Under the pieces are notes generated by a model. It was given only the letters and a program-made list of their open reading frames with translations, was not told where the DNA came from and searched no databases. DNA of 64,000 bases from Pannonibacter sp. SL95 (lineage in GTDB: Bacteria > Pseudomonadota > Alphaproteobacteria > Rhizobiales > Stappiaceae): contig NZ_JAPPRC010000003.1 of the NCBI RefSeq assembly GCF_026672425.1, positions 1,532,501 to 1,596,500 of the forward strand. Direction: 5' to 3'. Positions 32,634 to 54,398 of this stretch are shown here, piece by piece (position 1 is the stretch's first letter; every line of letters starts with the position of its first letter). Made by a program: the position numbers and the translations under genes.

Positions 32634-32995
32634 CAAGCCGCGTCCTGTCCCATCCCCGTTAAGGTTACAGATTTACTAAGTCGCGCGACAGTTGTGGTGC
32701 GGCTGTGCTCTTGTGTTGATTCCCGGCTGCGCTTGGCTAACGTGGCGGGGTGAATTGACGGTCCAGATGATTGCCGAGAGTTCCGAAGTCATTCGTTGCC
32801 TCAGTCATTTGCGTTTGTCACTAAACCCTACGGAGTGCCTGGGTCCGCCGCATCTCCTGGGTCCGTGGGGAAAAGGCCGGTGGGATGCTGTCCGATGAGT
32901 GGCCTCCTCGTAGTCAGCGTCCCGCCGGCCGCCTTCTTTGATTGCCTCGTGTGACGCGGCTATTCCCGGTTGGCACAGGTGCCAATTCACCCGCT

Positions 32996-48452: not shown

Positions 48453-49547
48453 ATGGCAAATAACCGGGGCGCGTCGGTCCGCTACGAGAATGTCCAGAAA
48501 AGCTATGACGGAGAATCGCTGGTCGTAAAAAACCTCAATCTCGACATCCCGCCCGGTGAATTCCTCACCATGCTGGGGCCGTCGGGATCGGGCAAGACCA
48601 CCTGCCTGATGATGCTGGCCGGGTTCGAGCCGGCCACCCACGGCGAGATCTTTCTCAACGGCCGGCCGATCAACAAGGTGCCGCCGCACAAGCGCGGCAT
48701 CGGCATGGTGTTCCAGAACTACGCCCTGTTTCCGCACATGACCGTGGCCGAAAACCTCGCCTTTCCGCTGCAGGTGCGTGGCATGAGCAAGGCTGATCAG
48801 GCGGTGAAGGTGAAGCGGGCGCTGGAAATGGTCGAGCTGGGCAAGCTCGGCAATCGTCGCCCGGCGCAGCTGTCCGGTGGTCAGCAGCAGCGCGTGGCGG
48901 TGGCCCGTGCCCTGGTGTTCGATCCGGAGCTGGTGCTGATGGACGAACCGCTCGGCGCACTCGACAAGCAGCTGCGCGAGCAGATGCAGTACGAGATCAA
49001 GCACATCCACGAAAATCTCGGCGTCACGGTGGTCTATGTCACCCATGACCAGACCGAAGCGCTGACCATGTCTGACCGGGTGGCCGTGTTTAACGACGGC
49101 ATCATCCAGCAGCTGTCGACGCCGGACCTCCTTTATGAGGAGCCGCAGAATTCCTTCGTCGCCCAGTTCATCGGCGAGAACAACAAGCTGAACGGCAAGG
49201 TCGTCTCGGTCGAGAACGGGGCCTGCGAGGTGCTTGTTGCCGATGGCACGCGGCTGAAGGCGGACAAGGTCAATGTGTCCGGCGCCGGGGATGCGACCAC
49301 CCTGTCGCTCCGGCCCGAGCGCGTGGAACTCGCGCCCGAGCGGCAGATGGACAACATGCTGCAGGGACGCATCGAGGAGCTGATCTATCTCGGCGACCAC
49401 ATCCGTGTGCGCATGACCGTCTGTGGCAACAGCGAGTTCATCGTCAAGGTTCGCAACCGCTCCGACCGCAGGCGGCTGGAGACCGGCTCGATGGTGCCGA
49501 TCGGTTGGGAAATGAGGGATTGCAAGGCACTGGATGCCGTTGCGTAA
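48453..49547 (+). CDS. potA: Polyamine-type ABC transporter ATPase
   Basis: 364 residues. Walker A GPSGSGKTT, Q-loop FQNYALFPHMTV, signature LSGGQQQRVAVARAL, Walker B LVLMDEPLGALD and switch VYVTHDQTEAL are present, and a C-terminal TOBE domain follows (about 275-360). It powers import by the downstream binding protein and permeases. By sequence it is in the PotA/spermidine-putrescine group, but the operon leads to creatinase, so the cargo may be creatine. Confidence 0.93.
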   Translation: MANNRGASVRYENVQKSYDGESLVVKNLNLDIPPGEFLTMLGPSGSGKTTCLMMLAGFEPATHGEIFLNGRPINKVPPHKRGIGMVFQNYALFPHMTVAENLAFPLQVRGMSKADQAVKVKRALEMVELGKLGNRRPAQLSGGQQQRVAVARALVFDPELVLMDEPLGALDKQLREQMQYEIKHIHENLGVTVVYVTHDQTEALTMSDRVAVFNDGIIQQLSTPDLLYEEPQNSFVAQFIGENNKLNGKVVSVENGACEVLVADGTRLKADKVNVSGAGDATTLSLRPERVELAPERQMDNMLQGRIEELIYLGDHIRVRMTVCGNSEFIVKVRNRSDRRRLETGSMVPIGWEMRDCKALDAVA

Positions 49548-49628
49548 TGGAATGCGTGACCGGGGGCAGAAGATCTCCGGCACGACGACTTGACCGGTCC
49601 CGGTCCAACGCTCGAAAGGGGAGCAGAT

Positions 49629-50729
49629 ATGAAACTGGCAACCACACTCCTGGCCACGGCAGCGCTGTCGCTGACGTCCATCTCGGTACAGGCCGCTGAC
49701 CTGACCATCGTGTCCTGGGGCGGCGCCTACTCGGCCTCGCAGAACAACGCCTACCACAAGCCCTTCATGGCGATGAAGTCGGGCGTCAACATCATCAATG
49801 ACGAGTCCTCCAACGAGGCCGTCGCCAAGCTGCGCGCCATGAACGAGGCCGGCAACGTCACCTGGGATGTGGTCGACGTGGAAGGTCCGGACAGCCAGCG
49901 TCTGTGCGACGAAGGCCTGGCCATGGAAATCGACTTCGATGAATGGCTGGCGGCCGCGCCGGACGGGGCAACGGCGACCAAGGACTTTGGTCCCTCGCTG
50001 ATCAACAAGTGCTTCATCCCGCAGATCGTCTTCTCCACCACCTTCGGCTACCGCACCGACGTGAAGGACTGGAACGGCGCGGTCCCGACCAGCCTCTGCG
50101 ACATCTTCGACACCAAGAAGTTCCCCGGCAAGCGCAGCCTGGAAAAGCGCCCGAAGAAGAACATCGAATGGGCGCTCCTGTGCGACGGCGTTGCCAAGGA
50201 TGACCTCTACACGGTGATGTCGAAGCCGGAAGGCATCCAGAAGGCGCTGGCCAAGCTCGACACCATCAAGAAGGACGTGATCTGGTGGACCGCCGGCGCG
50301 GAAACCCCGCAGCGTCTGGCTGACGGTGAAGCCGTCATCGGCTCGACCTACAACGGCCGCCTGTTCTCGGTGATCGAGGAGCAGAAGCAGCCGGTCGCCA
50401 TGCTGTGGGACTGGCAGGTGTTCGACTTCGACGGCTGGATCATTCCGGCAGCCGTAAAGGAAGACAAGCTGCCCTTGATCAAGGAATACATCAAGTTCGC
50501 CACCGACACCCAGCGCCTCGCTGACCAGGCCAAGTACATTTCCTATGGCCCGGCCCGCGCCTCGTCGCAGCCGCTCGTCGGCAAGCACGCGGACCTCGGC
50601 ATCGAGATGGCGCCGCACATGCCGACCAACCCGGCCAACCAGAAGAACTATCTGGTCAACAACATCGAGTGGTGGGCTGACAACCAGGATGAGGTCGAAG
50701 AGGCCTTCCAGGTCTGGCTTGCAAAGTAA
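49629..50729 (+). CDS. ABC transporter substrate-binding protein (PotD-like)
   Basis: 366 residues with a signal peptide (MKLATTLLATAALSLTSISVQA). The mature part is a PotD/putrescine-binding type fold: LTIVSWGGAYSASQNNAYHKPF, then NEAVAKLRAMNEAGNVTWDVVDVEG, TTFGYRTDVKDWNGAVPT, and AVIGSTYNGRLFSVIEEQKQPVAMLWDWQVFDFDGW. Four cysteines in the mature protein could form two disulfides. The ligand cannot be told from sequence; the operon suggests a cationic guanidino compound. Confidence 0.88.
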   Translation: MKLATTLLATAALSLTSISVQAADLTIVSWGGAYSASQNNAYHKPFMAMKSGVNIINDESSNEAVAKLRAMNEAGNVTWDVVDVEGPDSQRLCDEGLAMEIDFDEWLAAAPDGATATKDFGPSLINKCFIPQIVFSTTFGYRTDVKDWNGAVPTSLCDIFDTKKFPGKRSLEKRPKKNIEWALLCDGVAKDDLYTVMSKPEGIQKALAKLDTIKKDVIWWTAGAETPQRLADGEAVIGSTYNGRLFSVIEEQKQPVAMLWDWQVFDFDGWIIPAAVKEDKLPLIKEYIKFATDTQRLADQAKYISYGPARASSQPLVGKHADLGIEMAPHMPTNPANQKNYLVNNIEWWADNQDEVEEAFQVWLAK

Positions 50730-50792
50730 GCCATGAGAGACGGACCGGGCGTGTCTGCGCCCGGTCCCCGTTTCCTTCGCGCCGGAACAAAC

Positions 50793-52050
50793 ATGACCCA
50801 GCTTGATGCGCCCGTGCTGACCCAGGATGGTCGGCCGCTCAAGGCGAGCCTTTCACGCGCCCTCAGACGGGAAAAACTGCGTGCCTTCATCCTGATCCTG
50901 CCGCTGCTGGCGTTTGTGCTCCTGACGTTCGCTGCGCCGATCGTCGACATGCTGCTGCGCTCGGTGGACAATTCGATCGTGCCGCAGACGCTGCCACGCA
51001 CGGTCTTGGCGCTGTCCGACTGGGACCCGAAGGCGGAAGAACTGCCGGGCGAGGCGGCCTATGCGGCAATCGTTGAAGGACCTGCGCGAGGCGGTTGCCA
51101 ACAAGACCCATACCCGGCTTGGCACGCGCCTCAATTATGAGCAATCCGGCTTTTCCAGCCTGATGCGCAAGTCCGGCCGTGCCGTCGAGAAGATCGAGAG
51201 TCCGGACGTGAAGGGACAGCTGATCGCGGCTGACAGCGCCTGGGGCGATCCTGTCATCTGGCAAACCCTGAAACTCTATTCCGGCACAACGACAAAGGGC
51301 TATTTCCTGTCCGCCGTCGATGCGCGCCAGTCAATCGATGGCGTTGAAATGCTCCCCGAGGGCGAGCGCGTCTATCTGATGCTGTTCGGCCGCACGCTGA
51401 TGATGAGCCTGGCGATCACGCTGCTTTGCGCGCTGATCGGCTATCCGGTTGCCTTCCTCTTGGCGCAGCTTCCGATGCGCACGTCGAACATGCTGATGAT
51501 CCTGGTGCTGCTGCCGTTCTGGACCAGCCTCCTGGTGCGCACCTCGGCCTGGAAGGTCCTTTTGCAGCAACAGGGCGTCATCAATGACCTGCTGGTCTGG
51601 ATCGGACTGCTTGGTGACGACACGCGCCTCGTGATGATGAACAATGCCACCGGCACGATCATCGCCATGACGCATATCCTGCTGCCCTTCATGATCCTGC
51701 CGCTCTATTCGGTGATGAAGACGATCTCGCCCTCCTACATGCGGGCCGCGCGCTCGCTCGGCGCCAATGACTGGACGGCCTTCTGGCGCGTCTATTTCCC
51801 CCAGTCCGTGCCTGGCATCGGGGCAGGGGCGGTGCTCGTCTTCATCCTGGCCATCGGCTACTACATCACGCCGGAGCTGGTCGGCGGCACGTCCGGCATC
51901 TTCATTTCCAACCGCATCGCCTATCACATCTCCAGTTCGCTCAACTGGGGTCTGGCGGCGGCGCTGGGCGCGCTGCTGCTGGTGGCCGTGCTCATCCTCT
52001 TCTATGTCTACGACAAGGTCGTCGGCATCGATAACGTCAAGCTTGGATAG
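50793..52050 (+). pseudogene. ABC permease gene (PotB-like) with one-base frameshift
   Basis: A single permease gene split between two frames. The first ~95 codons (MTQLDAPV..., with TM1 FILILPLLAFVLLTFAAPIVDML) run from 50793 to near 51075; the rest, from EDLREAVANKT on, continues in the next frame to 52050. Removing one base in the AAGG run at 51076-51079 restores a 418-residue protein with a ~100-residue periplasmic loop after TM1 and five further helices, including the EAA-type ARSLGANDWTAFWRVYFPQSVPGI. The remainder has no other lesion. It is either a sequencing error, a recent mutation or programmed slippage. Confidence 0.85.
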
Positions 52051-52060
52051 GAGCGCGCCG

Positions 52061-52915
52061 ATGTCTTCCTTGCCCTCCTACGCCTCGCCGCTGCAACGCA
52101 CCTGGCACTACACGTTCCGGGTTATCTGCGGGCTCATCTTCTTTTTCCTGGTGTTCCCGATCCTGGTGATCATCCCGTTGTCCTTCAACGCCCAGGACTT
52201 CTTCACCTTCACGCCTGAAATGCTGGCGCTGGATTCGGCCGGCTATTCGACCAAGCATTATGTGGACTTCTTCACCAATCCGGACTGGCAGAAGGCGCTG
52301 CAGAACTCCTTCATGATCGCGCCGACGGCGACCCTGCTGGCCACGGTTCTTGGCACGCTTGCGGCCATCGGCCTGTCGCAGCCGCATGTGCCGTTCCGTT
52401 CGGTGATCATGGCCATCCTGATCTCGCCGATGATCGTGCCGCTGATCATCGCGGCAGCGGGCATGTATTTCTTCTACTCCCGCATCGGCCTGCAGGGCAC
52501 CTACTGGGGTGTCGTCATGGCCCATGCGGTGCTCGGCACGCCTTTCGTCATCATCACCGTGACGGCAACGCTGGTCGGCTTCGACAACAGTCTGGTGCGG
52601 GCGGCGGCCAGCATGGGCGCTGGGCCGATCACCACCTTCTTCAAGGTGCAGATGCCGCTGATCCTGCCGGGGGTCGTCTCCGGCGCGCTGTTTGCCTTCA
52701 TCACCTCCTTCGACGAGGTGGTTGTGGTCCTGTTCCTGGGCTCTGCCAGCCAGAAGACGCTGCCCTGGCAGATGTTCATCGGCCTGCGCGAGCAGATATC
52801 CCCGACGATCCTGGCGGTCGCCTCGATCATGGTGGTACTCTCTGTGGTGCTCTTGACCGTGCTGGAGCTGTTGCGCCGGCGTTCGGAACGCCTGCGCGGC
52901 GTAACGCCGGCCTGA
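52061..52915 (+). CDS. ABC transporter permease (PotC-like)
   Basis: A 284-residue inner-membrane protein with six helices (first VICGLIFFFLVFPILVIIPL). The EAA loop reads ASMGAGPITTFFKVQMPLILPGVVSG. It pairs with the preceding permease. AGGAG is 9 bases upstream of the ATG, 10 bp after the potB-like stop. A terminator follows at 53094. Confidence 0.92.
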   Translation: MSSLPSYASPLQRTWHYTFRVICGLIFFFLVFPILVIIPLSFNAQDFFTFTPEMLALDSAGYSTKHYVDFFTNPDWQKALQNSFMIAPTATLLATVLGTLAAIGLSQPHVPFRSVIMAILISPMIVPLIIAAAGMYFFYSRIGLQGTYWGVVMAHAVLGTPFVIITVTATLVGFDNSLVRAAASMGAGPITTFFKVQMPLILPGVVSGALFAFITSFDEVVVVLFLGSASQKTLPWQMFIGLREQISPTILAVASIMVVLSVVLLTVLELLRRRSERLRGVTPA

Positions 52916-53093
52916 GACGAACTTGTCCGGCTCGCAGCAGTCAGTGCAGCGGGCCGGTGGACTGACATAGCGAAACGGACATGTTCCCAAGTGGACCCGG
53001 GGCGGTACGCCAGTTCCGGGCCGGGACTGCGGGCGATCGGCCTGCCACCGGACATGACTTTTCGCACCGAGATCGGGCCTGGCGGGCCGGCTT

Positions 53094-53129
53094 CCTTGAC
53101 TGGAAGCCGGCCCGTTTTTCGTTATGGCC
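53094..53129 (+). terminator. Rho-independent terminator between permease and creatinase
   Basis: A 12-bp stem GGGCCGGCTTCC (53094-53105) / GGAAGCCGGCCC (53112-53123), loop TTGACT, followed by GTTTTT. It separates the transporter genes from creatinase, either as a full stop or as an attenuator. Confidence 0.92.
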
Positions 53130-53171
53130 GGCTGGTAATAGGCCCACCAGCGCACTGTGAGGAGAAGTATC

Positions 53172-54398
53172 ATGCATCACGATGACATGCCGCGACTGCA
53201 AGTGCTTGAAAATGGTGAGAAGAGCTGGTCGCCCTTTTCTGAAGGCGAGCTTCAGGGCCGGCAGGACCGTCTGCGGCGGCGGATGGAAGAGCTGAAGCTC
53301 GATGCCTGCGTGTTCACCAGCTACCACAACATCTGCTACTTCTCCGGCTTCCTCTACTGCTCCTTCGGCCGCCGCTACGGCTTTGTCGTCGATGAGCACC
53401 GCGCGACGGTGATCGCTGCCGGCATCGACGGAGGCCAGCCCTGGCGGCGCGTGCTGGGGGATGCGCTCACCTACACCGACTGGAACAAGGACAATTACTT
53501 CCACGCCCTGCAGGCGGCGCTGTTCTCCTCAGGCCGCAAGCCGGCGCGCATCGGCATCGAGTTCGACCACGTGTCCCTCGACCTGATGGCCAAGCTTCAG
53601 GCCGCCCTGCCGGGGGTGGAACTGGTCGATGTCAGCGATGCGGTCATGCGCATGCGCACCATCAAGAGCCTTGAGGAACAGGCGCTGATCCGTGAAGGCA
53701 CGCGCATCTGTGACATCGGCGGCGCGGCGGTGGCTGGGGCCGTACGGGCAGGGGTTCCCGAGCACGAGGTGGCGCTTGCCGGCACGCAGGCCATGGTCCG
53801 GGCGATCGCCGCATCCTTCCCCTTCGTCGAGCTGATGGACACCTGGGTCTGGTTCCAGTCCGGCATCAACACGGATGGCGCCCACAATCCGGTGACCAAC
53901 CGCGTGGTTCAGGCCGGCGACATTCTCAGCCTCAACTGCTTCCCGATGATCTTCGGCTACTACACGGCACTGGAGCGGACGCTCTTCTGCAATCACGTCT
54001 CCGACGCGCATCTGCGGCTGTGGGAGATCAATTGCGAGGTTCATCGCGCCGGACTGGAGCTGATCCGGCCGGGCGCGCGCTGCTGCGACATTGCCGCCAC
54101 CCTCAACGACATCTACCGCCGCTACGACCTGCTGCAATACCGCAGCTTCGGCTACGGCCATTCCTTCGGCGTGCTCAGCCACTATTACGGCCGCGAGGCG
54201 GCGGTTGAGCTGCGCGAGGACGTGGAAACGGTGCTGGAGCCCGGCATGGTCGTGTCGATGGAACCGATGATCATGATCCCGGAAGGCTTGTCCGGGGCAG
54301 GCGGCTACCGCGAACACGACATCCTGATTCTCACCGAGACCGGAGCCGAGAACATCACCGGCTTCCCCTTCGGTCCCGAACACAACATCGTCGGCTAG
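53172..54398 (+). CDS. Creatinase (creatine amidinohydrolase)
   Basis: A 408-residue M24 'pita-bread' protein that hydrolyses creatine to sarcosine and urea. It matches known creatinases segment by segment: FTSYHNICYFSGFLYCSFGR-YG, DGGQPWRRV, YTDWNKDNYF, IKSLEEQALIREG-RI-DIGGAAV, MDTWVWFQSGINTDGAHNP, TALERTLF and YREHDILI. The catalytic His (H238, His232 in Pseudomonas) and the guanidinium-binding Glu residues are kept, and M24 metal ligands are absent, as in creatinase. GGAG precedes the ATG. The upstream ABC importer is the likely source of substrate. No sarcosine oxidase or urease is in the window. Confidence 0.94.
   Translation: MHHDDMPRLQVLENGEKSWSPFSEGELQGRQDRLRRRMEELKLDACVFTSYHNICYFSGFLYCSFGRRYGFVVDEHRATVIAAGIDGGQPWRRVLGDALTYTDWNKDNYFHALQAALFSSGRKPARIGIEFDHVSLDLMAKLQAALPGVELVDVSDAVMRMRTIKSLEEQALIREGTRICDIGGAAVAGAVRAGVPEHEVALAGTQAMVRAIAASFPFVELMDTWVWFQSGINTDGAHNPVTNRVVQAGDILSLNCFPMIFGYYTALERTLFCNHVSDAHLRLWEINCEVHRAGLELIRPGARCCDIAATLNDIYRRYDLLQYRSFGYGHSFGVLSHYYGREAAVELREDVETVLEPGMVVSMEPMIMIPEGLSGAGGYREHDILILTETGAENITGFPFGPEHNIVG

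Follow-up and report, generated by a model that had tools for sequence, protein, structure and literature searches.

A creatinase-linked PotABCD-type transporter of Pannonibacter sp. SL95 as a predicted importer of creatine and other short zwitterions

The 64,000-nucleotide stretch of Pannonibacter sp. SL95 DNA analysed here (contig NZ_JAPPRC010000003.1, positions 1,532,501 to 1,596,500; below, the window) carries at 48453-54398, all on the + strand, genes for the ATPase, the substrate-binding protein (SBP) and two permeases of an ATP-binding cassette (ABC) transporter, followed by a creatinase gene, as judged from open reading frames (ORFs), profile searches and alignment. We propose, with a probability of about 0.65, that the four transporter genes encode a zwitterion importer of the gamma-aminobutyric acid (GABA) type for which creatine is a physiological substrate, probably along with GABA or other short omega-amino acids like it. 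The basis for this is the gene content of the locus, homology, the residues of the binding pocket, a linkage that recurs in other genomes, and UreC and SoxA-like genes in the same genome. An earlier note on this DNA, made from its letters alone, had suggested creatine or some other guanidino compound, and not spermidine, as the substrate of the transporter; the creatinase linkage and the zwitterion-type pocket support that as a prediction, which needs widening to short omega-amino and guanidino acids.

Marine bacteria use creatine, a compound given off by animals and perhaps by phytoplankton, as a nitrogen source. In the proposed scheme a binding-protein-dependent ABC importer from the GABA-type branch of the PotD-like family would bring it into the cell, the SBP gripping short zwitterions with R244 at the carboxylate and D268 at the amino or guanidino end; the adjacent creatinase would split the imported creatine into sarcosine and urea, and urease and sarcosine oxidase, whose genes lie at other places in the genome, would release ammonia and glycine. 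We infer that creatine is bound and transported in this way, that the genes are co-regulated and that creatine is used as a nitrogen source.

Creatinase and its linkage to the transporter

By its sequence, the enzyme encoded at 53172-54398 is a creatinase (creatine amidinohydrolase, M24 fold). Its phmmer matches to solved creatinases have E values of 1e-196 to 1e-173 (7yto 1.3e-196, 1chm 2.6e-177) and those to other M24 proteins are 6e-22 or weaker; similarity to characterised creatinases (EC 3.5.3.3) is near full length, and identity to the Pseudomonas putida enzyme is 67%, which bears out the nearly complete Pseudomonas creatinase match claimed earlier. An alignment of 61 rows (45 from the class sample and 15 from the named loci described below, plus 1CHM) shows no variation at thirteen columns in or next to the active site, and His232, Glu262, Glu358 and Arg64/Phe62, for which the numbering and catalytic roles are presumed, are present in all 61, the window's enzyme among them. 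In the creatinase tree, the window copy falls in a group with those of Stappiaceae and of Rhizobium sp. L1K21. The idea that the roseobacter creatinases (~55% identical to the window's) might be a different enzyme, which arose from the two copies in Roseovarius sp. 217, was dropped and these copies were retained as creatinases because all 61 rows agree at the 13 compared columns. Elsewhere in its own genome the creatinase query finds four further matches, at just 25-30% identity. That genome also encodes urease alpha (UreC; 973 bits, cut-off 680) and two SoxA-like pieces that jointly span sarcosine oxidase alpha (765 and 688 bits, each singly below the cut-off of 1164).

The association of creatinase with this transporter clade was measured in a class sample of 385 genomes from the host's class, in which creatinase was found at E<=1e-80 in 45 genomes and a related SBP at E<=1e-40 in 100. 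Genomes with an SBP at least 55% identical to the window's have creatinase in 24 of 29 cases, against 45/385 overall (Fisher p 4e-21); counted by family the figure is 13/15 (p 5e-11, with a family total of 169 that is approximate). The five without creatinase are G048 and G173 (81 and 84% complete), G077, G168 and G281. SBP and creatinase are no more than 4 kb apart in 13 of the 45 genomes with creatinase, and in one more the creatinase lies beside both permeases at a contig end. Gene neighbourhoods were mapped for all of these 45 and for 48 of the 100 with an SBP. This adjacency in 14/45 genomes of nine families compares with 0.13-0.16 cases expected from a rough genome-size estimate. The strand is the same in 12 of the 13 adjacent pairs and opposite in G213, and the adjacent SBPs of G339, G034, G261, G159, G340 and G213 have just 35-49% identity to the window's. 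The co-occurrence test used 74 SBP rows, with only G339 and one G331 row included past G051 (E weaker than ~3.5e-66); the omitted rows leave the genome sets at >=40% identity unaffected and move the adjacency expectation from 0.13 to about 0.16. The earlier note had called for such a neighbourhood survey, and had accepted that a lack of association between creatinase homologues and this transporter clade would count against it; the association found is strong.

A second sample, of 246 genomes at least 90% complete and nearly all of different genera, covered one family, that of G022, whose creatinase is nearest to the Shimia haliotis copy in the tree. Of the genomes that have an SBP at E<=1e-140, 113/138 also have creatinase, as do 54/108 of those that do not (p 1.3e-7); this limit was chosen after the gap in E values was seen, and a limit of 1e-100 gives 147/187 versus 20/59. 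Among the places listed and inspected by eye, at least 12 of the 246 genomes carry SBP and creatinase genes on one strand within 3 kb of each other.

The named loci (the best 80 of 582 relatives in a contig scan) hold creatinase in 15 of the 80 retrieved stretches, always on the same strand as the transporter. Six of these have creatinase upstream and nine have the window order, ATPase-SBP-permease 1-permease 2-creatinase, including Hongsoonwoonella zoysiae, Rhizobium sp. L1K21, Labrenzia alba, Roseibium aquae, Hoeflea halophila, Stappia stellulata and Shimia haliotis, so the order recurs in named Stappiaceae, Rhizobiaceae and Shimia. Creatinase is present in 14 of 17 chosen named genomes, and five of the eight that lack adjacency carry it elsewhere. 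Because the same gene set recurs across many genomes, it is not a chance grouping.

Might the transporter instead import the substrate of another M24 hydrolase, an ectoine-like compound, with creatinase secondary? The ectoine hydrolase DoeA is present in 51/385 genomes of the class sample and in the retrieved stretch of 18/80 named loci, and it is tied to the SBP overall. The creatinase-SBP link is nevertheless significant inside DoeA-positive genomes (at SBP identity >=55%, counts of 19, 2, 12 and 18; p 3.6e-4) and inside DoeA-negative ones too (p 3e-6). The DoeA-SBP link inside creatinase-positive genomes is not significant at identity limits of 60%, 55% and 45% (p 0.75, 0.20 and 0.09) and is at 50% (p 0.03), and DoeA was not found in the window's own genome at E<=1e-80. 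Conditioning on DoeA and creatinase has thus weakened ectoine as the main driver, and we think such an importer highly improbable. DoeA does retain an SBP link of its own, since in creatinase-negative genomes that link is significant at 55%, 50% and 45% (p 0.03, 9e-5 and 1e-4; 0.22 at 60%). Also on the side of an ectoine-like substrate is a block directly upstream of the transporter in loci L171 (5706-8664) and L205 (5793-8691), which lies beside or near it in L068, L069, L072, L142 and L143 as well and consists of two or all of a diaminopropionate-ammonia-lyase-like gene, an M24 (PepQ-like) hydrolase gene and an EutA-like gene. This block suggests a third M24 substrate for the porter.

Other genes stand next to creatinase in places. 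Creatininase adjoins it in three genomes, G185, G279 and G287 (loci L107, L108 and L112; PF02633, checked on L107), and a SoxG-family gene does so in G194. A LysR-type regulator (checked on L103) is near creatinase in L103, L107, L108, L118 and L123. In L128, L129 and L132, two of them from genomes of 1.2-1.3 Mb, the neighbour is a protein of 371-372 amino acids (aa), the L128 copy of which matches arginine deiminase PF02274 (26.4 bits, cut-off 22.8) in its C-terminal part only.

The binding pocket and the range of substrates

The SBP (49629-50729, + strand, with its ATG at 49629) is of the GABA/opine type, with an SWGG...NGR...D pattern. It matches no NCBIfam family, and phmmer against the PDB gives 8jv1 as the best hit (2.9e-64), then 4eq7 and the GABA sensor 6dgv. 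An AlphaFold2 model built from 40 rows (mean pLDDT 90.3) was compared with solved structures by Foldseek; the top match is again 8jv1, titled 'SAR11 PotD in complex with GABA' (1.7e-30), followed by Atu4243 with GABA and then mostly by agropine/mannopine binders and GABA sensors, and the earliest spermidine-bound PotD stands at rank 35. On this model the protein would be closest in fold to the GABA/opine binders, which rank above the polyamine binders, as a GABA-type PotD-like SBP should be. The GABA site of Pf622 consists of W9, T13, F100, Y102, W202, R205, D228 and Y264, with D228 contacting the amino group (PMC12999171). In the alignment R205 and D228 of Pf622 correspond to R244 and D268 of the window SBP, which thus carries the Arg/Asp pair of this site. 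In the class sample 51/51 SBPs of the clade keep the Arg and 47/51 the Asp (three have Glu and one Asn), and the named loci keep both in 80/80 cases. Contact between the Arg and the carboxylate is reported from work on Atu4243. R244 and D268 are therefore the predicted zwitterion-binding pair, and since this pair is kept, the SBP is predicted to bind zwitterions, the class to which creatine belongs, as does GABA. The window's own genome has no second match to this SBP at E<=1e-5.

The family names point elsewhere, to a polyamine (spermidine/putrescine) importer. The ATPase scores above the cut-off of the PotA model TIGR01187, and the permeases match the PotB and PotC models, below their cut-offs. 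At the position of the pocket Arg, however, E. coli PotD has Ser and PotF has Asp, so the window SBP does not have a pocket of their type; it is 21% and 18% identical to PotD and PotF, versus 38% to the 8JV1-like SBP of L136, and by modelled fold the GABA/opine binders outrank polyamine-bound PotD and PotF. The gene order also differs from that of the Ruegeria pomeroyi polyamine system (below). Of the readings considered we judge this the least probable, and the polyamine label is very probably wrong for the clade, which suggests that in marine alphaproteobacteria the substrate is misnamed in some 'spermidine/putrescine' annotations.

The neighbours of the transporter in other genomes bear on a further alternative, that it imports GABA and other omega-amino acids and does not carry creatine, the creatinase adjoining it for other reasons such as shared regulation or lifestyle. 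Among the 80 named loci a class III aminotransferase gene (AT3) neighbours the transporter in 22, on the same strand in 21, and a gene resembling succinate-semialdehyde dehydrogenase (SSADH) in nine, on the same strand in eight; together these resemble two steps of GABA breakdown. Such genes can stand directly upstream on the same strand (for example in L184 and L159), and in Roseibium aquae L159 the one-strand order is SSADH-AT3-ATPase-SBP-permease 1-permease 2-creatinase, with an SSADH score under the curated cut-off. In the class-sample stretches an aminotransferase gene is near the transporter in 13 genomes and a 5-aminolevulinate (ALA)-synthase-like gene in 11. The nearest fold match being the SAR11 PotD-GABA structure also favours such an importer, as does the fact that none of the compared pocket positions separates creatinase-linked from aminotransferase- or SSADH-linked SBPs; since these residues are the same in both contexts, the neighbours alone cannot establish creatine specificity. 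Against it stand the creatinase adjacency in nine families, the persistence of the creatinase link after conditioning on DoeA, and the window itself, in which creatinase adjoins the transporter and no GABA-catabolic gene does. We consider an importer that leaves out creatine unlikely. Because the same clade, with the same pocket, also adjoins GABA-type catabolic genes, the substrates probably comprise several short omega-amino or guanidino acids, creatine among them; the simplest account is a single importer that takes a range of short zwitterions, creatine and GABA included.

The loci with an ALA-synthase-like gene (in L065 above the TIGR01821 cut-off) and/or a class III aminotransferase gene near the transporter include L065, L066, L090, L095, L096, L103 and L141. 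As a separate observation, locus L148, titled Enemella evansiae (Actinomycetota), holds an alphaproteobacterial-type transporter with two SBP genes; its contig is probably contamination.

The GABA-type neighbours, the shared pocket residues and the DoeA link in creatinase-negative genomes all weigh against creatine as a substrate, and so do the following. No creatinase is found in three of the eight named genomes without adjacency (two Reinekea and one Pelagibacteraceae). In the family sample creatinase is missing from 25/138 genomes with a close SBP and present in 20/59 without any SBP match, and weaker SBPs (1e-100 to 1e-140) show no creatinase link (34/49 vs 133/197, p 0.87). The creatinase-adjacent SBPs of G159 (Asn) and G339 (Glu) are without the pocket Asp. 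A major facilitator superfamily (MFS) gene adjoins creatinase, with no ABC genes beside it, in G117, G222, G380, G289 and G107, and could encode an alternative carrier like CreT (below), which would also suit an importer that does not carry creatine. Since the same five genomes encode, at another place, an SBP of 52-69% identity, MFS and ABC systems may coexist. In the locus itself, permease 1 is not intact as read and a terminator-like hairpin parts permease 2 from creatinase.

We retain a zwitterion importer with creatine among its substrates as the preferred reading. A wider proposal, to which we would give slightly less than even odds, is that a widespread alphaproteobacterial 'PotABCD', related to the GABA-holding SAR11 PotD, is a porter of zwitterionic guanidino and omega-amino acids, that it is the main entry route for creatine (and GABA) in roseobacters, Stappiaceae and relatives, and that it has repeatedly been drawn into operons of M24-fold hydrolase genes (for creatinase, for ectoine hydrolase and for an unnamed third).

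Layout of the locus

The PotA-like ATPase gene occupies 48453-49547 (+ strand; TIGR01187, 376.1 bits, cut-off 355.6), and in the gap between the SBP and permease 1 genes a hairpin with an 11-pair stem was found at 50742-50767 (+) by pattern scan only. PotB-like permease 1 extends over 50787-52050 (+) in two frames (about 50787-51071 and about 51076-52050), as tblastn with five relatives indicates. In these relatives it is a single protein of 418-437 aa; in the window the N-terminal part (84-96 aligned residues) is in frame 3 and ends at 51071-51077, and the remainder is in frame 1, from 51076-51079 to 52047. Because the frame switches at about 51071-51079, ORF 51061-52050 is the C-terminal portion only; it matches the PotB family NF007044 at 2.5e-50, under its cut-off. 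The frame change may be an assembly error or a real mutation, and the former is worth considering because in this genome the gene for sarcosine oxidase alpha, too, was matched as two consecutive pieces that by their coordinates are in different frames. PotC-like permease 2 (52061-52915, +; 284 aa) matches NF007047 at 1.5e-44, below the cut-off, and is 85-87% identical to its five relatives across 251-257 residues; their alignment (283-284 aa) gives its start as 52061, versus 51767 for the longer ORF. The creatinase ORF (+) opens at a GTG at 53157, and the ATG at 53172, ~256 bp beyond permease 2, is the likely start. The five genes on one strand that the earlier note described are thus all there, at about the spacing it gave, with permease 1 divided between two frames.

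The terminator-like hairpin 5' of creatinase (53076-53126, +) has the core GGCCTGGCGGGCCGG and a T tail. The hairpin with this core is near-invariant in seven operons (the window, L155, L156, L157, L159, L161 and L173), with compensatory changes at 3/15 pairs; an upstream CGCCAGT element, complementary to CTGGCG, is present in six of the seven gaps between permease 2 and creatinase (window gap 52990-53126). The exact core is found once in the window's own genome, and the hairpin was not seen in L160, L171 or L205. A riboswitch-like reading of the gap was set aside: RNAalifold on the seven sequences supports the terminator hairpin alone, and no Rfam family matches the gap at gathering threshold. 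Pattern scanning finds eight terminator-like sites in the region versus 4.5 expected.

The locus is flanked by a fructokinase-like gene upstream (minus strand) and a sulfide:quinone-reductase-like gene downstream, both of which look unrelated to it. Farther off, window positions 32823-32935 match the EcpR1 small RNA (RF02500; 83.7 bits), a family known from Rhizobiales, which points to the host's order.

Comparison with known systems

In the open-licence literature seen, in part, no PotABCD-type creatine importer was found, and the sole bacterial creatine carrier found to be proposed is CreT. This MFS protein of Corynebacterium glutamicum has been tied to creatine transport, and its homologues usually adjoin creatinase or creatininase genes (PMC8864220). 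The proposed substrate of the window system is the same, but its components are those of an ABC transporter and not of the MFS. That paper also states that Roseobacter denitrificans OCh114 uses creatine without CreT, for which its authors expect another route; the transporter clade described here is a specific candidate for it. A South Pacific study gives Ca. Indicimonas creatine-degrading potential together with highly expressed 'polyamine' ABC transporters, and in the part available names no creatine carrier (PMC11366302); it may be an example of such misnaming.

The R. pomeroyi genes SPO3466-3469 were assigned to a polyamine importer from a test of an SPO3469 mutant (PMC10130141), SPO3469 being the SBP and SPO3468 the ATPase (PMC9038784). 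By these locus numbers, the order there is SBP-ATPase-permeases, whereas in the window clade it is ATPase-SBP-permeases. E. coli PotABCD and PotFGHI share the four-part architecture and ATPase subfamily of the window system (with permease 1 in two frames in the latter) and differ from it in the binding protein, by sequence and in the pocket Arg, as given above.

SAR11 PotD (8JV1) is the nearest solved relative of the window SBP by sequence and fold; the two are 37% identical and share the NGR arginine, while SAR11 PotD has Glu in place of D268. In a 1.2 Mb genome with a similar SBP, EutA and DoeA genes adjoin the SBP gene and creatinase is encoded elsewhere. The GABA binders Atu4243 of Agrobacterium and Pf622 of Pseudomonas have the SWGG motif and the Arg/Asp zwitterion pair of the window SBP, but differ from it in overall sequence (~32-33% identity by fold alignment) and in that Trp202 and Thr13 of Pf622 are replaced by Tyr241 and Tyr34. 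The P. putida creatinase (1CHM) is the same as the window's at all 13 compared positions, and the difference lies in the partner gene, the window creatinase being linked to an ABC importer and the P. putida gene reportedly having an MFS gene upstream (PMC8864220).

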